IMG/VR virus record: IMGVR_UViG_3300040807_000560
Location: 1 to 21,384 of that record
Length of the DNA: 21,384 nucleotides
Source: a virus
Reading direction: 5' to 3' (one strand)
In this document: positions 4,608-12,651 of the stretch, piece by piece
How the letters are laid out: every line of letters begins with the position of its first letter
Numbering within the stretch: position 1 is the first letter of the stretch
Made by a program: the position numbers and the translations under genes
Notes under the pieces: generated by a model
Told to the model about the DNA's origin: nothing
Databases searched by the model: none
What the model saw: only the letters and a program-made list of their open reading frames with translations

Positions 4608-4871
4608 ATGAAAAAAAGAACCAGAAGTATACTAGAAGAATTAAACAATCTAGACCGTGCTAGAAGTAATGATCATTTGATCGAAGCTACTGGCAGTAAT
4701 ATAATTGAAAGTGCAATTAATTTACTTAATCGTATTTCAAAAACTTATGACGAAAGTACCGCTGGAGAATTAGAACGCCGCTTTATTAATAGTATTAAAT
4801 CTGGTGACCCGCAAAAATTTAAAAGAGGTCTTAAAAAAGTTATAGAGAGTAAACAAAATGATATTGAATGA
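4608..4871 (+). CDS. Small helical protein, candidate packaged head protein, unknown
   Basis: This 87-residue, highly charged and helical protein opens the operon 4608-7648. The first 30 residues (MKKRTRSILEELNNLDRARS onward) contain two possible prohead-protease sites, I-L-E at 8-10 and L-I-E|A at 24-27. The rest includes a segment ERRFINSIKSGDPQKFKRGL. The start has CGGAG 9 bases upstream. The end overlaps the nucleotidyltransferase gene by 14 bases. It resembles small conserved proteins of T4-like marine phages whose function is not known. Packaging is inferred from the N-terminus and neighbours. Confidence 0.7.
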   Translation: MKKRTRSILEELNNLDRARSNDHLIEATGSNIIESAINLLNRISKTYDESTAGELERRFINSIKSGDPQKFKRGLKKVIESKQNDIE

Positions 4872-5733
4872 AGGCGGATCAATGCCGGGCGTAGGCCCAA
4901 TTCACATTAGTGAAATTGAACCTACATTAGATGCACTAGAAAAATCTTTAGGTATAGATCTAAAGAACAATGTTCTCGGTAGTGTAGGTAAAAAAGAGTT
5001 TAGCGGCGACATAGATGTTGCAATTCAAGTAGATCCTGATAAAATTCCTGAACTTGTAAAGAAAATTGAAGCAAGTCCTTTGGTAAAAGACATTGCAAAG
5101 TCCAGTGTTATTATGACAAGTGTTGACATTGTAAATTATGATGCAAGTAAACAAACAGTAAAACCTAGAACAGGTAAAGTACAAGTAGACTTTATGCCAG
5201 GTGATCCAGGTTGGATGAAAACATACTATCATAGTCCAAGTGAAAAAGAATCAAAGTATAAAGGTGTATTCCGTAATATTATGATTGCAACTATCTGTGC
5301 AGTGTACCAAAGACAAGACTCTGAAGAAAAAATAGACGATGGTCGTGCAGTTGAAAGCGAGCGTTGGATGTGGAGTCCTGCAGACGGACTTGTAAGAATT
5401 AAGCGTACTCCTGTACCTAAAGCAAATGGACAAGGTTATACAAAGAAAAACAAAAACGAAATTATAGCACAGCCAATTCGTACTGCTCCAGAAATTGCAA
5501 AAGCATTAGGTCTAAATGGACCTGAAGATTTAAACAGTTACGAAAGTTTAAAAGCAGCAATTGAAAAGAATTATCCAGCAGAACTAGTTACAAAGATTTT
5601 AGATAGCTTTGCTGAAAACGGACAAGTTAAAGATATTGGTGTACCAGATGATCTAGTTAAACAAGAAAGTTTAGCAGACAAACAATTAAATAGAATTAAG
5701 CAGTTAACAGGATATAAACAATATGAGGTTTAA
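4858..5733 (+). CDS. Nucleotidyltransferase-fold protein (GS...DxD, hD)
   Basis: The product has 291 residues. GS (41-42) followed by DID (51-53) and V-D-F (D111) form the metal-binding signature of the DNA polymerase beta / minimal nucleotidyltransferase superfamily: GS, then DxD on one strand, then a third Asp on a neighbouring strand. Such enzymes transfer an NMP to a nucleic acid, antibiotic or protein. The C-terminal 120 residues are Lys-rich and helical, and may bind RNA or a partner. The start at 4858 overlaps the preceding gene; M9 is an alternative. It overlaps the ligase-like gene by 11 bases, which suggests a joint function. The substrate cannot be told from sequence. Confidence 0.75.
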   Translation: MILNEGGSMPGVGPIHISEIEPTLDALEKSLGIDLKNNVLGSVGKKEFSGDIDVAIQVDPDKIPELVKKIEASPLVKDIAKSSVIMTSVDIVNYDASKQTVKPRTGKVQVDFMPGDPGWMKTYYHSPSEKESKYKGVFRNIMIATICAVYQRQDSEEKIDDGRAVESERWMWSPADGLVRIKRTPVPKANGQGYTKKNKNEIIAQPIRTAPEIAKALGLNGPEDLNSYESLKAAIEKNYPAELVTKILDSFAENGQVKDIGVPDDLVKQESLADKQLNRIKQLTGYKQYEV

Positions 5734-6865
5734 CGAATTTAGAAACTTTATAAAGAAACCGTTAACTGAAGCTGCTCGCATTCAACACGCAGAAGATATT
5801 ATTTTCTGGGAGGGCAGTCGTGGTGCAATGCGAGCACTTGAAGCTCTTAAAAGTATGGAAAAGGGTTCGCATAAAGATGTTACATTAAAATGGGACGGAA
5901 GTCCTGCAATCATTTTTGGACGTAACGAAAATGGAGAATTTGTACTTACAGACAAGAGTGGCTTTACAGCAAAAGGCTATGACGGAAAAACAACATCAGC
6001 AGATGCACTAGGCACAATGTTAGGCAATCGTCCAGGAGCTAAAAAAGATCCTAAAGGCTACGGTTCTTTCATACAAAATATGCAAGACATATTTGACGAG
6101 TATGAAAAAGCAACACCTAAAGATCATAGAGGTTACTTCAAAGGCGACTTATTATATTTTAACACACCTGCAAAGATAGATGGTAACTATGTGTTTAAAC
6201 CAAACATTGTAGAATATGCAGTTGATGTAAATTCAGACTTAGGTAAACGTATTGGAAAATCAAAAACAGGTGTAGTTATACACAGAGTTGTAGACGAATA
6301 TGGCAACGAAGGTCCTTTAAAGAATGCTGATATATTTCAAGGTAATGAAGTATTAGTTGTTCCGCCTGTTACTGTAGAACGTCCTGCAGATGTAGACAAT
6401 CAACAAATTGTACAATTAGAAAGATTAATCCAACAAAATTCTTCTGGCATTGATGAATTGTTAAATACAGATGCACTAAGAGAAATGAAAATAAGTGATT
6501 TTGCACAAGTATTGTACGCCTATACAAACAGTAAAGTTGATACTGGCCTAGAAAATTTAGGTTCTGATTTTGCACAATGGGTACAAAATAGGAAACAGTT
6601 GTCAGAAAGGAAAAAGGCAACAATACTTGAGTATGTAAATCAGCATAGAAATGCATTTAATGCGTTATGGCAAACAGTAACAGCATTAATGACTGTAAAA
6701 GATAATATTATTCAACAGTTTGACTCACATGATCAAACTGTTAAATCAAACATTCCAGGACACGGCGATGGCGGTGAAGGCTATGTACTAGCGCATCCTG
6801 AAGGTGATATTAAACTAGTACCAAGAGAATTCTTCACTAAAGCTAATAGAGCTGTTCAACGATAA
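5723..6865 (+). CDS. Ligase-like covalent nucleotidyltransferase candidate (DUF6267-like)
   Basis: The product has 380 residues. LKWDGSPAIIFGR (55-67) matches motif I (KxDG) of ATP-dependent DNA/RNA ligases, with K56 the candidate AMP-accepting lysine. YFKGDLLYF (138-146) resembles motif III. GEGYVL (351-356) and IKLVP with K364 resemble motifs IV and V. Residues about 225-340 are helical and look inserted between the motifs. The N-terminus MRFNEFRNFIKKPLTEA resembles T4 capsid-targeting sequences and has an L-T-E|A site at 14-17. It overlaps the nucleotidyltransferase gene by 11 bases. I believe it belongs to a phage family annotated only as DUF6267. Ligase activity is inferred from motif order, not shown. 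Confidence 0.65.
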   Translation: MRFNEFRNFIKKPLTEAARIQHAEDIIFWEGSRGAMRALEALKSMEKGSHKDVTLKWDGSPAIIFGRNENGEFVLTDKSGFTAKGYDGKTTSADALGTMLGNRPGAKKDPKGYGSFIQNMQDIFDEYEKATPKDHRGYFKGDLLYFNTPAKIDGNYVFKPNIVEYAVDVNSDLGKRIGKSKTGVVIHRVVDEYGNEGPLKNADIFQGNEVLVVPPVTVERPADVDNQQIVQLERLIQQNSSGIDELLNTDALREMKISDFAQVLYAYTNSKVDTGLENLGSDFAQWVQNRKQLSERKKATILEYVNQHRNAFNALWQTVTALMTVKDNIIQQFDSHDQTVKSNIPGHGDGGEGYVLAHPEGDIKLVPREFFTKANRAVQR

Positions 6866-6875
6866 GGAGCAAAAA

Positions 6876-7322
6876 ATGAAAGATTATATGAAAGAGTTTG
6901 AAGCACACTTAAACAAGGTTACTGAAGGTGTGTTAGATGACGAAGTAAAAGAAGCTGGCATGGAGATGACTGACCAACAGCGTAAACTAGCAGAGTATGG
7001 TAGAATACTAATGGATCAGGCTGTGACACAAAAAGACGATGCATTGTCAAATGTAATGGCAAAGGTAGGTAATGAACTTACTAACTATGGTTCATCATTT
7101 GGTGCAAGAAGTTTAGATGATCTTGTTAAAAAGACAGGCACTTCACCAAACATAATTAAAAAATTACTAGCATTTGCGGAAAATATTGCAGCTACTCAAA
7201 AACATCTTGATACAGATCATGACTCAGGTGGTCTTGATGACGAAGGTGATGATGAATTTACCCAAGCGTCAGATGACGAAATGGCAGCAATGGCAGATCG
7301 TGCAGCGAGAGATGCAGACTAA
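6876..7322 (+). CDS. Acidic helical protein, unknown
   Basis: The product has 148 residues with AAGGAG 8 bases before the ATG. It is helical in the first 110 residues and very acidic at the end (a run rich in Asp, Glu and Gly, then MAAMADRAARDAD). The N-terminus (MKDYMKEFEAHLNKVTEG) begins like the packaged-protein pattern, with a weaker V-T-E|G site. The next gene starts at its stop (TAATG). It could be a scaffold-like or internal head component, or an acidic partner for the basic virion proteins nearby. No family is recognised. Confidence 0.7.
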   Translation: MKDYMKEFEAHLNKVTEGVLDDEVKEAGMEMTDQQRKLAEYGRILMDQAVTQKDDALSNVMAKVGNELTNYGSSFGARSLDDLVKKTGTSPNIIKKLLAFAENIAATQKHLDTDHDSGGLDDEGDDEFTQASDDEMAAMADRAARDAD

Positions 7323-7648
7323 TGAACTTTATTAAAGATATGTATAAAGAAGGGCTAGTTGAAAGTCAATTAGACGAGGATGCCTGGGCTGATATTAGAG
7401 GCCGTCGCATAGAACGTTTATCAAAAGAAAAACGTGTAGCACTATATGCATATCTAGTTGGCTTAGAAAATGCTATGAGAGCTACTAAGTTTGTAGAAAT
7501 GGCTGAAGAAGGTCGTACCCCACCAAATCAATATGTAAAAGGCTATGCTCCTATAGTTGAAATGATAGATGATATAGTTGAAGGCGGTACAGCATACATA
7601 CAACAGCTAAGACAACTACATAAACGAGCTAAAAAAGGGCGTAAATAG
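7322..7648 (+). CDS. Basic helical protein, unknown
   Basis: The product has 108 residues. The N-terminus (MNFIKDMYKEGLVESQLDE) carries L-V-E|S at 12-15 and L-D-E at 17-19. The body is helical with GRRIERLSKEKRVALYAYLVGLE, and the C-terminus is strongly basic (RQLHKRAKKGRK). It is the last gene of the 4608-7648 operon, translationally coupled to the acidic protein upstream, so an acidic/basic pair is possible. A weak terminator overlaps its last codons. No catalytic motif is seen. Confidence 0.7.
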   Translation: MNFIKDMYKEGLVESQLDEDAWADIRGRRIERLSKEKRVALYAYLVGLENAMRATKFVEMAEEGRTPPNQYVKGYAPIVEMIDDIVEGGTAYIQQLRQLHKRAKKGRK

Positions 7649-7657
7649 CCTATTTTT
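7631..7657 (+). terminator. Weak terminator at the end of the 4608-7648 operon
   Basis: AAAAAAGGGC (7631-7640) can pair imperfectly with GCCTATTTTT (7648-7657), leaving a short loop and a T5 run. It overlaps the stop codon region. The G-T pair and mismatch make it weak. Confidence 0.35.
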
Positions 7658-7667
7658 GTCTAAAAGA

Positions 7668-7701
7668 CTAAATACATATAACAACTTCACTGAGCGTGAA
7701 G
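7668..7701 (+). promoter_or_regulatory. Late promoter CTAAATA with 5' hairpin before the gene at 7733
   Basis: CTAAATA at 7668-7674 predicts a start at about 7680. CTTCAC (7685-7690), TGAGC, GTGAAG (7696-7701) forms a perfect 6-base hairpin within the first 22 bases of the transcript. TAGGAG follows 7 bases before the ATG. Confidence 0.65.
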
Positions 7702-7732
7702 ATGTGTCATAGAGAAAATATAGGAGAATAAC

Positions 7733-8017
7733 ATGGCAGGACCAGGATTTGGCGCAATCGCAGGCGTCGACAATTACAAAGCAAGAGCAGGAAGTGGCTT
7801 AGGCCCACGCACACAGATCGTTGTAACAGACGCCGCTGTGGCAGACCAAGCTGCACTAGACGCAATCGTTGCAGCAGCAGGCGTTGGCGGATGGACAGTA
7901 GCAGGCATTGCAGGTTCATTAGCAGGCGTTATGCACATCGCACTACAAGGTGGCGGTGATGCAGACGGCGAAACTATTGGACAAGCAGTTTCAATTGTAG
8001 CAGACTTCACTGAATAA
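7733..8017 (+). CDS. Small, probably abundant structural protein, unknown
   Basis: This 94-residue protein is rich in Ala and Gly with few charged residues. It starts MAGPGFGAIAGVDNYKAR, has an Ala/Val-rich middle and ends in a short acidic tail. It has a strong ribosome binding site, its own late promoter with a 5' hairpin, and a strong terminator, so it is a single-gene transcription unit. Its base composition is clearly GC-richer than its neighbours, with many C-ending codons, as in highly expressed genes. Together these point to an abundant virion component such as a head decoration or tube protein. No family was recognised. An open frame on the opposite strand is taken as a shadow. Confidence 0.75.
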   Translation: MAGPGFGAIAGVDNYKARAGSGLGPRTQIVVTDAAVADQAALDAIVAAAGVGGWTVAGIAGSLAGVMHIALQGGGDADGETIGQAVSIVADFTE

Positions 8018-8061
8018 TTCCTAACTACCTTAGGGACCGTGACAACGGAAGGCGTCACACT

Positions 8062-8092
8062 AAAGCGTCACTTTTTAAGTGGCGCTTTTTTT
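8062..8092 (+). terminator. Strong intrinsic terminator
   Basis: AAAGCGTCACTT (8062-8073) and AAGTGGCGCTTT (8077-8088) form a 12-base stem with one G-T pair and a TTT loop, ending in a run of seven T (8086-8092). A second GGCGTCAC at 8051-8058 could compete for the right arm, and GTGAC (8039-8043) pairs with GTCAC (8054-8058). Confidence 0.85.
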
Positions 8093-8095
8093 ATG

Positions 8096-8109
8096 ACTGT
8101 AAATACAGT
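8096..8109 (+). promoter_or_regulatory. Palindrome ACTGTAAATACAGT with late motif, leaderless start
   Basis: ACTGTA, AA, TACAGT is a perfect palindrome lying between the terminator and the ATG at 8110. It contains GTAAATA (8099-8105), a late-type motif, and four bases later comes the ATG. No Shine-Dalgarno sequence is present. Since transcription should stop at 8092, a promoter here is needed. Confidence 0.55.
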
Positions 8110-8505
8110 ATGAGATTTCAGATAAAAACGCTAGTAGATGTTACAGAAACACAAGCTCGTAAAGGGCAAGATAAGAAACTAGTAAATCAACAAGATAACT
8201 TTAATACGTTATACAATACAATTGGACTGCGTACAAACCCATCTGATTTTAAGATAACCGTTGAAACACAGTCATTAGCAGATTTAACATTTGGTAAAAA
8301 ATATAAAGGAAAGCAAAAGGTTTGGACAATTGAGTTCTTTGTTGAACAAGAAGCATCAACTAGTGTAGACATGATGATAGATGATTTTAATCTAGTACCT
8401 ATTATTACAGGTCTTGATGAAACTATAAATTTAGATACAGATATGTTTATCACTTCCAAAAATAAGGACTTAACTAACATTATTTTCATTGAAATTGATA
8501 AATAA
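8110..8505 (+). CDS. Conserved T4-like phage protein, unknown
   Basis: This 131-residue, mostly beta-rich protein (MRFQIKTLVDVTETQARKG at the start, IEFFVEQEASTSVDMMIDDF in the middle, IIFIEIDK at the end) resembles a conserved family in T4-like marine phages with no assigned role. It starts 4 bases after a late-type TAAATA and has no ribosome binding site, so it is predicted to be translated from a leaderless mRNA. A second late motif overlaps its stop and serves the next gene. No catalytic residues stand out. Confidence 0.75.
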   Translation: MRFQIKTLVDVTETQARKGQDKKLVNQQDNFNTLYNTIGLRTNPSDFKITVETQSLADLTFGKKYKGKQKVWTIEFFVEQEASTSVDMMIDDFNLVPIITGLDETINLDTDMFITSKNKDLTNIIFIEIDK

Positions 8506-8525
8506 AAATGTAGCAAAGATGTTAC
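8498..8525 (+). promoter_or_regulatory. Late promoter ATAAATA with +1 hairpin for the XhlA-like gene
   Basis: ATAAATA (8498-8504) overlaps the stop of the previous gene. Five bases later, at 8510, GTAGCA pairs with TGTTAC (8520-8525, one G-T pair) around a 4-base loop. The predicted leader is about 93 bases. Confidence 0.6.
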
Positions 8526-8572
8526 TAGGCAACATATATACAACTTAAGGCCAACTACGAGTTTACTTAACA

Positions 8573-8587
8573 TCCTACATTGTAGGA
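8573..8587 (+). promoter_or_regulatory. Hairpin just before the XhlA-like ribosome binding site
   Basis: TCCTAC, ATT, GTAGGA forms a perfect 6-base stem with a 3-base loop, ending a few bases before ACGGAG and 15 bases before the ATG. It could shield or present the ribosome binding site. Confidence 0.45.
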
Positions 8588-8602
8588 CATACGGAGAAAT
8601 AT

Positions 8603-8836
8603 ATGGCATCGCCTACACAACTTGAAAAAGAAAATTTAGAAGCACACGTAGACTTATGCGCTCAACGCTATGAAGTCTTAGAAGGTCGCCTCACTAAAGT
8701 TGAAGAAAAGATAGACCATATTCACAAAGATATTACAGAAGGTCAAAAGTCATTGACCAAAGTCCTAATTGGTACAGCAGGTACTGTTATTGCAGGACTA
8801 CTTTCCACAGTAATCGTTATTATTACACAAAGTTAA
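8603..8836 (+). CDS. XhlA-like coiled-coil membrane protein (holin-associated candidate)
   Basis: The product has 77 residues. Residues 1-50 form a charged coiled coil (LEKENLEAHVDLCAQRYEVL and on). Residues about 54-75 (VLIGTAGTVIAGLLSTVIVII) form a single C-terminal membrane helix. This matches XhlA-type haemolysin/holin-associated proteins of phages. The membrane anchor with a cytoplasmic coiled coil fits a lysis or membrane-docking role. CGGAG lies 7 bases before ATG, and the leader has two hairpins, so timing may be controlled. Holin activity is not certain, because one helix only is present and no endolysin is seen in this window. Confidence 0.75.
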   Translation: MASPTQLEKENLEAHVDLCAQRYEVLEGRLTKVEEKIDHIHKDITEGQKSLTKVLIGTAGTVIAGLLSTVIVIITQS

Positions 8837-8842
8837 ATCTCG

Positions 8843-8849
8843 ATAAATA
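8843..8849 (+). promoter_or_regulatory. Late motif ATAAATA 5 bases before ATG, leaderless start
   Basis: ATAAATA is followed by ACTAT and the ATG at 8855, with no Shine-Dalgarno sequence, so the predicted +1 is the A of the start codon. Confidence 0.55.
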
Positions 8850-8854
8850 ACTAT

Positions 8855-9166
8855 ATGTTATTACGAGAATTTTTTAATCAGCCAGCCTCATCTGACGATA
8901 ACCTAGAAGAAAAACAAGTATGGGCTCGTCGAGGAAAAGAAGTTGTCCGCAAATACCGTTGTCAAGGCGGTAGACGCAACGGACGCATTGTTGCTAAAAT
9001 GGCACAATGTTATGCAGCACCTGATGCAAAAAAACGTGCAAGACTAAAAGTTATGAAGGCAAAACTAGGTAGTAGAATTGCTAAAAAAACTAAAAGGACT
9101 AAGCGTATTAATCCTGCCTCAATAAGAGTACAGAGATTAAACAAGATGCAAAAAAGGAAACGCTGA
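8855..9166 (+). CDS. Basic virion-associated protein, first of two paralogues
   Basis: This 103-residue protein is very rich in Lys and Arg. The N-terminus MLLREFFNQPASSDDNLEEK has an L-E-E site at 17-19, then QVWARRGKEVVRKYRCQGGRRNGRIV, a conserved Cys pair (C36 and C51) and a basic tail with NPASIRVQRLNK. The next gene repeats the same order, so they arose by duplication. High positive charge suggests DNA or RNA binding, and the N-terminus suggests head packaging with protease trimming. A histone-like internal head protein is my best guess. Its stop shares a base with the next ATG. Confidence 0.75.
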   Translation: MLLREFFNQPASSDDNLEEKQVWARRGKEVVRKYRCQGGRRNGRIVAKMAQCYAAPDAKKRARLKVMKAKLGSRIAKKTKRTKRINPASIRVQRLNKMQKRKR

Positions 9167-9465
9167 TGTTAATCAGAGAACTTATCGAAGCCACACAAGT
9201 ATGGAGTAAAAAGGGAACATCAAGTGTTCGCAAGTATCGCTGTACCAGTGGAGTTCGCAAAGGTCGTGTAATGAGTTCTCCAGCAGCATGTAATAAACCA
9301 ATGAATATACACAAATCTAAATCATTAAAACAAACACGATCACAAAAAGCACCAACAATGAAATTTAAAAGCAAGATTGCTAAACGATCAAATCCTGCTT
9401 CAAATAGAAATATCAGATTAAATAAATCTGTTAAACCCAAAAGAACTAGGAGAAAGATTAGATGA
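9166..9465 (+). CDS. Basic virion-associated protein, second paralogue
   Basis: This 99-residue paralogue of the previous protein has the common core QVWSKKGTSSVRKYRC, GVRKGRV, a second Cys, a basic tail and NPASNRNIRLNK. The N-terminus MLIRELIEA has L-I-E|A at 6-9, the site nearest to the T4 internal-protein arrangement. The two genes are in direct tandem with a one-base stop/start overlap. The Cys residues could bind metal or form a disulphide. DNA binding inside the head is inferred from charge and context. Confidence 0.75.
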   Translation: MLIRELIEATQVWSKKGTSSVRKYRCTSGVRKGRVMSSPAACNKPMNIHKSKSLKQTRSQKAPTMKFKSKIAKRSNPASNRNIRLNKSVKPKRTRRKIR

Positions 9466-9713
9466 AAATTTCAGACATTATAGAAAACAACAACTCAAAC
9501 GCTAAAGTTTCAAAAGTTATTGGTAATAAAGTTACTATTGATAACGGCGACGGCACTGAATTAACGGTTGACACAAAGAAAAATCCAAATGTTGTAGACC
9601 AAGATGCAGAGGGCAACGTAACTGTTGATCCCGAAGCTGGTAATAGCAAACAAAACGGAAATAATAGAAATAGAATCCGTCCAGGACAATCAGTAAACAG
9701 ACCAAATTCATGA
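9462..9713 (+). CDS. Small hydrophilic protein, unknown
   Basis: The product has 83 residues and begins MKISDIIENNNSNAKV with an I-I-E|N site at 6-9. A short beta segment (VIGNKVTIDNGDGTELTVD) precedes an Asn/Gly-rich, probably disordered tail. It overlaps both neighbours by 4 bases (ATGA type), so it is coupled in translation. The position among packaged-protein candidates is the only hint of role. Confidence 0.65.
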   Translation: MKISDIIENNNSNAKVSKVIGNKVTIDNGDGTELTVDTKKNPNVVDQDAEGNVTVDPEAGNSKQNGNNRNRIRPGQSVNRPNS

Positions 9714-9916
9714 AAATAAACGAATTGATAAAAACTTTCACAATACAAGTGTCTAACGAAGAACAAGCTGTTCTTGAAAAGTTAGATAGACAAACTCCCT
9801 TGTCTTTGTTTACTGAAAGAGAACAATTCGTAATTGAAAACTTGATGAAGAAAAGTTTGGTAAGTAAGGTAGTATTTAATAGCCAGACAGTTGTTGTGAG
9901 AAATGACCTACAATAG
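9710..9916 (+). CDS. Small helical protein with KINEL start, unknown
   Basis: The product has 68 residues: MKINELIKTFTIQVSNEEQA, then a helix-rich stretch with FTEREQFVIENLMKKSLVSK and a final beta segment (VVFNSQTVVVRND). The layout of helices followed by a strand pair could fit a winged-helix fold, but the evidence is thin. It overlaps its neighbours by 4 and 14 bases. No protease site follows the N-terminal pattern at the expected distance. Confidence 0.65.
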   Translation: MKINELIKTFTIQVSNEEQAVLEKLDRQTPLSLFTEREQFVIENLMKKSLVSKVVFNSQTVVVRNDLQ

Positions 9917-10331
9917 AGAAAAGTTACTAAAAGAGCTTGAAGATTTAGTTAATGGAAAAATTGACTCTTCTTTGTTTCCTTACCAAAAAGGAAACAGTAT
10001 TCGCATTGGACAATTTGTAGTTAGATGCAATAAGAGAGGTTTCTGGAAAGTGTATGATTGTGTTGATAACAAATTAGTAACAGAAACTTTTTGTAAATCT
10101 AGCGCAGTTGCTTTAGCCAAAGCACTAAGTCAAGGTAAATCTGCTGAAGCAGACATTTTAAACATTGACAGAAAAATACAAAAGTGGTATAATGATTGTA
10201 TGTTTTATAGATATACTATGAAAGTAACAAAAGATGATCTTAAATACGATATTGTATCAACAAGATATGATATTGCTAAACATAAAACATCATCAGCAAA
10301 ACAAGAGTTAGATAAATACATTTATGCATGA
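9903..10331 (+). CDS. Conserved phage protein, unknown
   Basis: The product has 142 residues. The first part includes a beta-rich segment (SIRIGQFVVRCNKRGFWKVYDCVDNKL) and the second part is helical, basic and Tyr-rich, ending in ELDKYIYA. It overlaps the preceding gene by 14 bases. It resembles conserved unknown proteins of T4-like marine phages found next to structural genes. A late promoter for the next gene begins 7 bases after its stop. No catalytic motif is apparent. Confidence 0.7.
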   Translation: MTYNREKLLKELEDLVNGKIDSSLFPYQKGNSIRIGQFVVRCNKRGFWKVYDCVDNKLVTETFCKSSAVALAKALSQGKSAEADILNIDRKIQKWYNDCMFYRYTMKVTKDDLKYDIVSTRYDIAKHKTSSAKQELDKYIYA

Positions 10332-10344: not shown

Positions 10345-10373
10345 AGTTATATGAACATTAGGAAGAGATGTCA

Positions 10374-11633
10374 ATGAATATTAGAGAAATTTCAAAACCC
10401 GTAACAGCAAAGAGTTTAAATGAAACTCTTGCCAGAAAGTTTGGCGCAAAGATCAATATTGATGCGTTTACACTAGAGCAATTACAAGATGCTCGTAATA
10501 GAATTAGAACAAAATTAAGCCAAGTTGAAACTATGGAAAGTTTCGACAGCGTACATTCAAATGAAAACTATCAAAAATCAAAACTCTTCCTTGATGTTTT
10601 GAATAGTGCAATTAAAGAACGCGGCGACATCCAAGAGGCAAAAGGTTGCCCATGTAATGAACCACCAGGTGGTAAATGCACTTGTCCAGCAGACTGCAAA
10701 GATTGTGATTGCAAAACAAACGAGTCAAAGAAAGCAAAGCCTGATTATATCGACATTGACGGGGATGGCGATAAAAAAGAGCCAATGAAGAAAGCAGTTA
10801 AAGACAAGAAGAAAAAGAAAATTGGCGAAGCTGATGCACAACCTAATGAAAACGATCCAGCATATGTTGCTATCAAAAAGAAATACGAAGAAGCATTACG
10901 TACAGGTAACAGAGCTATGGGTAGATTGTTAGCAGGACTATTAAAAGATGTATATGGTGAAGATCCAACAGTTGGTGGAATGATTGGTCAGCGCACAGGT
11001 ACAGCCGCTAACCAAGGCAATGCACAACCGACAGGTATGGCAGGTGCAGGCGCTAATCAAGGCAATGCACAACCGACAGGTATGGCAGGTGCAATGGCGG
11101 ATTCAATTGAAGAATCAGTTGTAACTGAAGGTGCAGAAGACCAAGCAGAACTAGTAATGGCTTCTAAAGATATGGTTGATAGATTAACTGGCTGGATGGA
11201 AGACACAGCAGAAATGCAGTCAGAGTCAATGCTAGAACTAGCAGATGCTATCCGTGATGAATTAGGCAGTGAAAAGTCAGAATCATTTACTGCTAAAGTT
11301 AAGCCAGCACTTGAAGCACTATACGCTGCAATGGAAGAAACAAGAGTAGCACTAACAAGTGGTGTTGGTATGCTAACTGGCGAAGCTGAGCCTGAAGATA
11401 TGATGGGTGCAGAACCAGCAGATGATATGGCTCCAATGGAACCACCAGTAGACGGTGAAGTTCCTCCTATGCCTGACGCTGATGTACAAGACGAGTTTTC
11501 AGCAGCAGATGCAGCAGTAGGCGGCGAAGAAGAAGCTGGTAGAGCTAAACGCGAATCAAAGCAATATTCAAAAAAAAAGATAGCTGAAAATTCTAAAAAA
11601 CTAGCACTTTTGCTTTCAAAAAAAAAGTCTTAG
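10374..11633 (+). CDS. Large acidic virion-associated protein with Cys-rich and DxDGD segments
   Basis: The start at 10374 is preferred because AGGAAGAG lies 6 bases upstream; 10368 is an in-frame alternative. The 419-residue product starts MNIREISKPVTAKSLNETLA with an L-N-E|T site. A helical domain (to about 80), a Cys-rich segment with eight Cys (about 91-114), a DIDGDGDKKEP loop like an EF-hand calcium site, a 15-residue repeat made twice (about 212-240), an acidic helical part and a Pro/Asp/Glu-rich part follow. It ends in a Lys-rich tail at A_AAA_AAG. A -1 shift there would add 129 residues. A scaffold or internal head protein is likely from context; the family is not known to me. Confidence 0.75.
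   Translation: MNIREISKPVTAKSLNETLARKFGAKINIDAFTLEQLQDARNRIRTKLSQVETMESFDSVHSNENYQKSKLFLDVLNSAIKERGDIQEAKGCPCNEPPGGKCTCPADCKDCDCKTNESKKAKPDYIDIDGDGDKKEPMKKAVKDKKKKKIGEADAQPNENDPAYVAIKKKYEEALRTGNRAMGRLLAGLLKDVYGEDPTVGGMIGQRTGTAANQGNAQPTGMAGAGANQGNAQPTGMAGAMADSIEESVVTEGAEDQAELVMASKDMVDRLTGWMEDTAEMQSESMLELADAIRDELGSEKSESFTAKVKPALEALYAAMEETRVALTSGVGMLTGEAEPEDMMGAEPADDMAPMEPPVDGEVPPMPDADVQDEFSAADAAVGGEEEAGRAKRESKQYSKKKIAENSKKLALLLSKKKS
11007..11093 (+). repeat. Two tandem 45-base repeat units in the coding region
   Basis: Bases 11007-11048 and 11052-11093 are the same except for one base (AACC/AATC), at a 45-base period. The unit encodes ANQGNAQPTGMAGAG. Such near-identity shows recent duplication or homogenisation. 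Confidence 0.85.
11621..11627 (+). other. Candidate -1 ribosomal frameshift site A_AAA_AAG
   Basis: In the frame of the 10374 gene the end reads TCA AAA AAA AAG TCT TAG, so A_AAA_AAG sits in the correct phase, four bases before the stop. This is the heptamer used in E. coli dnaX. A hairpin with CAGCG/CGCTG and GACCA/TGGTC arms lies at 11692-11717. It is farther away than a normal stimulator. A homopolymer sequencing error is the main alternative. Confidence 0.55.
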
Positions 11634-12016
11634 TCTCAGAAGCTGAATCACCAGCAGTTAAATTAGTACAAGTATTAAGAACAGTAATAGCCAGCGCGGA
11701 CCAAAATGGTCACGCTGTCTTTTTACATTTTGATACCCCTACACAACAAAATATAAAAAACGGTGCAAAAAATTTAGACCTTAACAAGCTAATGCAGAAT
11801 GTTGGCTCCGAACAGTTTGATTTTGGAACATTTAAAGCAGCATATGATACTGATGCTAGAGTTAAAGCTATGGTTAAAAACTTTAGTAAGTATGGTATAG
11901 AGCCTAAAACTAAAAACGAATTAGAAGGTGATGAGGAAGTAAACACATCACAAGGCGGCGATGCAGTAGGACAAATGGCAAAATCGGCTACAGACCTTGG
12001 AGACAATCTTAGTTAA
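11627..12016 (+). CDS. -1 frame continuation of the large acidic protein
   Basis: After a -1 slip at A_AAA_AAG, translation continues for 129 codons (VLVSEAESPAVKLVQVLRTV onward) to a TAA at 12014-12016. This frame is open from 11597 and has no ATG, GTG or TTG before the ATG at 11792, yet the residues before that ATG look like normal protein (HAVFLHFDTP and so on). Independent initiation could therefore give only the last 74 residues. The fusion would be 547 residues. The segment holds DFGTFKAAYDTDARVKAMVK and an acidic, Gly/Gln-rich end. The TAA overlaps the next ATG. Confidence 0.6.
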   Translation, partial: VLVSEAESPAVKLVQVLRTVIASADQNGHAVFLHFDTPTQQNIKNGAKNLDLNKLMQNVGSEQFDFGTFKAAYDTDARVKAMVKNFSKYGIEPKTKNELEGDEEVNTSQGGDAVGQMAKSATDLGDNLS

Positions 12017-12651
12017 TGCAACTTCAGAACTTATATCCTAAGTTTACTAAGCATCCATATCTGACCAACCCTATACCTAGACACCAAATAGAAACACTAC
12101 CATTCAAAGACTTTGACAAAGATGGTTACGAAGTACCTACTCCCCTAGAACATCTACATTATGAAGCAAACGGTGTTGAACTAAACAGAGAAATACAATA
12201 CCATATTGCGCCTGTGCAAGAATGGTACACTGATGTAGAACAAAGTGAACACGGACTAGTATTAGATCACTGTATGCTGTTAACTCGTTATGCGTTTGCC
12301 GACGAAGCAAGAGAACAAATACAAGAAGTTTGTAATACTAGTCGTCCTATATTACAAAAGCTACTAAACATTAAACCTAAGTGGGGTATTGACTTTTCGT
12401 TAGACTATGTAACACACGACATAGTAATGGAAGTAATACATATAGAACAAGACTTTGATAACATTGAAGAAGCAGAAGCTGCAAAAGAACGTTTAGAAAA
12501 CATCATAGATAACACAGACTGGTTTGACGGAGCAATGCGTCTATATCAGCTCAAAGACGAATGGATTAATTTATCATCAGATGACCATTCAGATTATAAA
12601 GCACAGTTCTTTGGATGGGAACGTGCTTTTGATAATAAAAAAGTTTTTTAA
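12016..12651 (+). CDS. Conserved phage protein, unknown
   Basis: The product has 211 residues, acidic and rich in aromatic residues. After a Pro-rich start (YPKFTKHPYLTNPIPRHQ) it is largely helical, with a central DHCMLLTRYAFADEAREQIQ segment and a later HIEQDFDNIEEAEAAKERLE helix. The ATG shares a base with the stop of the -1 frame extension. No enzyme motif, signal peptide or membrane helix is seen. A run of A and a sigma70 promoter for the next gene follow its stop. Confidence 0.7.
   Translation: MQLQNLYPKFTKHPYLTNPIPRHQIETLPFKDFDKDGYEVPTPLEHLHYEANGVELNREIQYHIAPVQEWYTDVEQSEHGLVLDHCMLLTRYAFADEAREQIQEVCNTSRPILQKLLNIKPKWGIDFSLDYVTHDIVMEVIHIEQDFDNIEEAEAAKERLENIIDNTDWFDGAMRLYQLKDEWINLSSDDHSDYKAQFFGWERAFDNKKVF

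Follow-up and report, generated by a model that had tools for sequence, protein, structure and literature searches.

A conserved -1 recoding site at the end of a virion-protein gene in uncultured phages

The gene for an acidic virion protein in IMG/VR record IMGVR_UViG_3300040807_000560, analysed here as a whole (21,384 bases; the window), almost certainly depends on an obligatory and conserved -1 recoding event just ahead of its stop codon. The event is probably a programmed -1 ribosomal frameshift at the heptamer A_AAA_AAG, which is favoured over slippage during transcription. It is widespread in uncultured, mostly marine phages and apparently undescribed there; no prior report of a -1 fusion in these phages was found in the literature searched. 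The mechanism is of a known kind and the case is new, and the exchange of a slip site for a start codon among relatives is unusual. The 129-residue domain encoded beyond the slip site will be overlooked or cut short by gene callers, and the swap from slip to start in sister clades offers a natural experiment on the reasons for which phages retain frameshifts.

The slip site and two classes of homologues

The zero-frame gene ends in TCA AAA AAA AAG TCT TAG, and its coordinates and those of the neighbouring features are collected in Table 1. The sequence-only reading had described a correctly phased heptamer near the stop and a -1 frame open from 11597 with no usable start until 11792, and had proposed an extension by 129 residues. 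The frame scan agrees: only TCT separates the heptamer from the TAG, the -1 frame is free of stops from 11597 to the TAA at 12014-12016, its first ATG, GTG or TTG is the ATG at 11792, and the slip product computed from the window frames is a fusion of 420 + 129 = 549 residues. It had also held that the second A9G run of the gene gives no equivalent fusion, and indeed a -1 slip there reads DS and then TGA (11585-11587), a stop two codons on. These two runs are the only ones of eight or more A on the plus strand of the whole 21 kb, where no run of eight or more T occurs, and only 12 other A9 or T9 runs are present in 235 kb of relatives.

Table 1. Features of the recoded locus in the window
Feature	Position	Strand	Remarks
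Acidic virion-protein ORF, zero frame	10368-11633	+	421 codons; in the ORF list; matches PHROG 14154
Second A9G run, same gene	11570-11579	+	zero frame reads SKKKIAE
Slippery run A9G	11618-11627	+	A9 at 11618-11626, then G11627; A8-A10 in 53/53 ATG-less homologues
In-phase heptamer A_AAA_AAG	11621-11627	+	inside the A9G run
Extension in the -1 frame	11627-12016	+	129 aa + TAA; reached only via a slip
Junction peptide V-L-V-S-E↓A	11627-11644	+	resembles the T4 gp21 prohead-protease motif
Zero-frame stop TAG	11631-11633	+	three bases 3' of the heptamer
Weak stem GCTG-AATCAC-CAGC	11642-11655	+	14 nt after the heptamer; window z -0.31, not significant
Next gene	12016-12651	+	its ATG shares one base with the TAA of the extension

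Five IMG/VR scans gave 85 distinct homologues of the extension (duplicates removed, window included) with pairwise identities of 34%-99% to the queries. They form two classes without exception, a slip class of 53 and an ATG class of 32. In the slip class the upstream gene ends with a run of A residues (A9 in 43 rows, A10 in nine and A8 in one, L011) and all 53 rows have an in-phase X_XXY_YYZ heptamer before the zero-frame stop, which is TAA, TAG or TGA and lies 0-1 codon after the run; the extension invariably occupies the -1 frame, with no ATG at the junction. The ATG class is without an A7 run near the stop and has its own ATG in 32/32, at a distance of 4-16 bases from the upstream stop (first base to first base), and the extension is in frame 0, +1 or -1 in 17, 9 and 6 rows. 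A Shine-Dalgarno (SD)-like site precedes the extension in none of the 53 slip rows versus 26 of the 32 ATG rows, where it often overlaps the stop as TAAGGA.

Because all 53 run-bearing homologues have the extension in -1 while the 32 run-less ones use all three frames, the coincidence of frame is beyond chance. A comparison of homologues for one continuous frame had been suggested as a check, and none of the 85 joins the two parts in a single zero frame. Two-gene homologues with a start codon, which had been named as evidence against a frameshift, do exist, but they are exactly those without the A run, and none of the 32 keeps an A9. The proposed -1 extension of the acidic protein is thus upheld by its conservation over dozens of lineages and by the lack of a start for the extension in the window.

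Coding selection and the exchange of slip site and start codon

The stretch from the slip site to the first ATG was compared in 17 pairs of slip-class sequences, which gave pS 0.61, pN 0.17 and pN/pS 0.27, similar to the pN/pS of 0.23 after the ATG. Differences at codon positions 1, 2 and 3 of this stretch number 197, 115 and 408. Both the ratio and the codon-position pattern indicate that the part before the ATG is translated in the -1 frame. This purifying selection supports the proposed extension, whose sequence before 11792 had been noted to read as normal protein. Since this start-less part is translated in -1, a fusion remains as the route to it.

The slip/ATG label changes twice, compared with about 26 times in shuffles, on a midpoint-rooted tree with SH-aLRT support that is built from 135 columns of the extension and is limited by the short alignment and by the rooting. 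Slip lineages surround both ATG clades, and L197-L199, the rows that diverge most (34-36% identity to L075), are also of the slip type. The two ATG clades are placed by the tree as separate origins. L022, at the base of one of them, has its own ATG together with an in-phase A_AAA_AAG and a -1 tail, but only six A's, and would resemble an intermediate between the two states. In the ATG class the upstream protein ends without conserved Lys residues (STATH, SKPGK, SSR and others), so the Lys run of slip-class proteins seems to be there for the sake of the nucleotide run. The run also persists though the codon before it changes, to GGA in L092 and TCT in L011. Since the counterparts in jumbo phages are separate genes, the slip may have been preceded by an older arrangement of two genes.

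Ribosome or RNA polymerase

In the proposed mechanism the TAG at 11631 would halt most ribosomes and release the 421-residue acidic protein. On a minor share of ribosomes the Lys-tRNAs on A_AAA_AAG would slip back by one base, giving the 549-residue fusion with the conserved domain, and this slip in the A9 run would be the sole route to the second half of the locus. A downstream hairpin probably assists in about half of the related lineages, and in other relatives the extension has a gene of its own with SD and ATG. The heptamers of the slip class are A_AAA_AAG (in the window and most rows), A_AAA_AAA and A_AAA_AAC, all of which are used by bacterial frameshift cassettes, A_AAA_AAC being inefficient in Escherichia coli (PMC4066793). 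The locus is like these E. coli and IS-element cassettes in heptamer class and in having optional downstream hairpins, and differs from them in the A9-A10 run, the adjoining stop, the virion genes concerned and the upstream side, as no SD-like stimulator was found upstream of the A run in the slip-class rows.

Hairpins with dG < -5 that start 0-14 nt after the heptamer occur in 18 of 38 representatives, and all five that were tested (L004, L010, L198, L075 and L097) have z-scores of -2.1 to -5.3. The hairpins are stronger with an AAA or AAC heptamer (Mann-Whitney p 0.013, from lineages that are not fully independent). Stimulatory structures 5-8 nt downstream are common in frameshift sites of the A_AAA_AAN class, though not required. 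The window itself has no significant downstream RNA structure (z -0.31), and the ATG class and the +50 region likewise have more structure than shuffles. The hairpins differ between lineages, and a single conserved stimulatory structure was rejected. RNA structure is locally strong (mean z about -1.3) in both classes at +48 to +90 from the heptamer, where the extension reads VLRTVIGSAD; as it occurs in both, this zone was rejected as a frameshift element.

A slip by the ribosome and a slip by RNA polymerase yield an identical protein. In the latter case the polymerase would add one A (or drop two) in the A9 run, placing the fused frame in some mRNAs, and translation itself would be normal. This reading is less likely, and is supported by the length of the run, which is 9-10 in 52 of the 53 rows and exceeds the need of the heptamer: A1-A3 are retained, although the ATG group has not conserved the first Lys. 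A run of nine A's is classic for transcriptional slippage, selection against slippage is seen at this length in many bacteria, and Thermus dnaX uses exactly A9 (PMC1088944). A9 and T9 runs are otherwise rare in these phages, and L022, which has its own ATG, retains the heptamer but only six A's. On the other hand L011 has only A8, and the codon phase of the run is always that of a tandem ribosomal slip, although shared ancestry or the Lys codons could also explain the phase. The lineage-specific downstream hairpins fit a ribosomal slip only, because a 3' hairpin is still untranscribed when RNA polymerase passes the run and can act on ribosomes only. Transcriptional slippage in Thermus dnaX and mxiE, on nine A or on a run of U, likewise joins or breaks frames at a homopolymer of about nine bases (PMC1088944); the present locus differs in its one fixed codon phase and in the downstream hairpins of many lineages.

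That the extension is made as a separate protein by termination and reinitiation, from the GTG of an overlapping GTGA or from a non-standard codon, is highly improbable. Fifteen of the 53 slip rows do read AAG-TGA and so have a GTG over the stop in the right frame, and two clades do encode the extension as a separate gene, but the other 38 rows, the window included, have no ATG, GTG or TTG at the junction, where the first codon is variable (GTA, GTC, ATA, CTA, GAC and others). With an SD-like site in 0/53, reinitiation would also leave the conserved A run and the -1 phase unexplained. Nine identical bases are a classic site of assembly or homopolymer error, but the chance that the locus is such an error or a decayed gene is negligible: dozens of metagenome contigs, independent of one another and divergent in their flanks, show the same layout, a fused zero frame is never seen among the homologues, and the extension is under purifying selection.

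The two proteins and a possible role of the fusion

The acidic protein consists of an N-terminal KSLNE domain, an acidic linker, a conserved DQAELVMASKDMVDRLTGWMEDTAEM region and the C-terminal LLSKKKS. It matches the HMM of PHROG 14154, a head-and-packaging 'virion structural protein', with E 9e-14 for the window and 4e-17 for L197. The linker is very variable in length among relatives and the window protein has a duplicated block, AANQGNAQPTGMAGAG, at 10990-11100. Searches of INPHARED by tblastn, with the extension and with the whole acidic protein, gave no match, and the conserved sub-region of the acidic protein weakly matches the jumbo phages Atu_ph07, Kaldavass and XbC2. The corresponding gene order in Kaldavass and CBB is acidic protein, 111-residue protein and exonuclease-like gene, compared with extension, hypothetical gene, exonuclease and beta-helix protein in the window, and NrdA lies further on in both Kaldavass and the window. 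CBB_298 and CBB_299 were found among the virion proteins by mass spectrometry, with 10 and 2 peptides (PMC5259590). The earlier designation as a virion protein is supported by the PHROG 14154 match and by the mass spectrometry of these syntenic genes.

The Rak2-like pair CBB_298/CBB_299 (PHROG 14154 / 15050) resembles the locus in gene order, in a second protein of about 110 residues and in a C-terminal VxxMAxxA motif, and both of its proteins are found in virions. It differs in consisting of two ordinary SD + ATG genes with no A run, as in Kaldavass where the second protein has GGAGG and ATG of its own. Kinship of the extension with the second protein of jumbo phages is based on position, size and the VxxMAxxA motif, outside which similarity is undetectable: the extension does not match PHROG 15050 (CBB_299), and hhalign aligns only the 17 columns of the C-terminal motif, which is not significant. 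The structural model of the extension has a pLDDT of about 90 over residues 12-100. Sequence searches of Pfam and PDB with the extension gave chance-level matches only, and Foldseek with the model found nothing at E <= 0.001 in BFVD or PDB. Winged-helix folds were the nearest by VIA-align, but Z values up to 5.6 are background, and no such function is claimed.

In phage T7, a -1 frameshift produces 10B, a minor extended form of the capsid protein 10A. The locus is similar in that a zero-frame virion protein would acquire a minor -1 C-terminal extension by a shift near the gene end, but the proteins are unrelated, and unlike in T7 the extension forms a conserved domain of 129 residues, which has its own gene in sister clades. 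In lambda a -1 slip sets the ratio of the short protein gpG to the fusion gpGT for assembly, and these proteins are absent from the virion (PMC5009743). A short protein and a fusion with a proposed ratio role in assembly are shared with the lambda pair, whereas the slip site and the genes are different and counterparts of the window proteins are present in virions. Nor does the locus precede a tape-measure gene as G/GT does; the hypothetical gene, the exonuclease and the beta-helix protein follow instead. The fusion may fix the proportion of the domain to the acidic protein and carry the domain along in particle assembly.

A prohead protease may then free the domain at a [VIL]xE sequence in the junction. 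T4 gp21 cleaves after L/I-x-E, and its substrates include the capsid-targeting propeptides of internal proteins (PMC9026906). The junction of the window has V in place of L/I at P3, which the strict motif does not include. Nearly all slip-class junctions read KKK-[VIL]-x-E or KKK-x-x-[VIL]-x-E, and [ILVMF]xE is present in 51/53. A stricter form of the motif, which undercounts rows whose stop falls one codon later, is found in 28 of 38 representatives compared with 7 expected and a maximum of 15 in 2000 shuffles. Part of this signal could stem from the stop, as xTA/xTG in the -1 frame codes for V, I, L or M; the shuffle holds the first residue fixed and so allows for this effect. The N-termini of the ATG class (MKVFELYE↓A, MRVSDIILE↓A and others) are like the capsid-targeting propeptides of T4 internal proteins. 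A gp21-type protease was found in Atu_ph07 and Kaldavass. The marine contigs are fragments; no such protease was found in them, and they gave no match to the T4 gp23, gp20 and gp21 profiles. The prohead-protease-like motif suggests that the domain may be released later.

A tentative and rather doubtful explanation is that the slip is a loading device, which would join an internal-head domain, weakly similar to winged helices, to an acidic protein akin to a core or scaffold protein and bring the domain in a set ratio into the prohead, where the protease would cut at [VIL]xE. In the clades with a separate gene, an N-terminal capsid-targeting propeptide (MKVFELYE↓A) would do the same job. If loading is indeed the function, slip site and start codon are interchangeable solutions that have been swapped more than once. 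Many small genes at 4608-10331 of the window have M[KR]xxE[LF]IE-like leaders (MKISDIIEN, MLIRELIEA, MRFNEF...LTEA), and they may encode a group of internal head proteins, with the leaders acting as capsid-targeting propeptides.

L289 (PALK01000009.1), a contig from this group of phages, is part of a Rickettsiales-labelled MAG and has the same extent as the IMG/VR contig L281; it may be a binning artefact or a hint of the host, and as a single MAG contig it is not used to assign one. A second A9G run, mostly TCAAAAAAAAAG, occurs 57-67 nt before the stop in 10 of the 53 slip-type rows, and its zero frame reads SKKK[IL]AE or similar, which is the KKK-hydrophobic-x-E pattern of the junction. L197 has two successive A9 runs, one of them 10 nt past the first base of the zero-frame stop, and its -1 frame reads KKKDLTNSKKKIAEAL, which looks like a duplication of the slip cassette.
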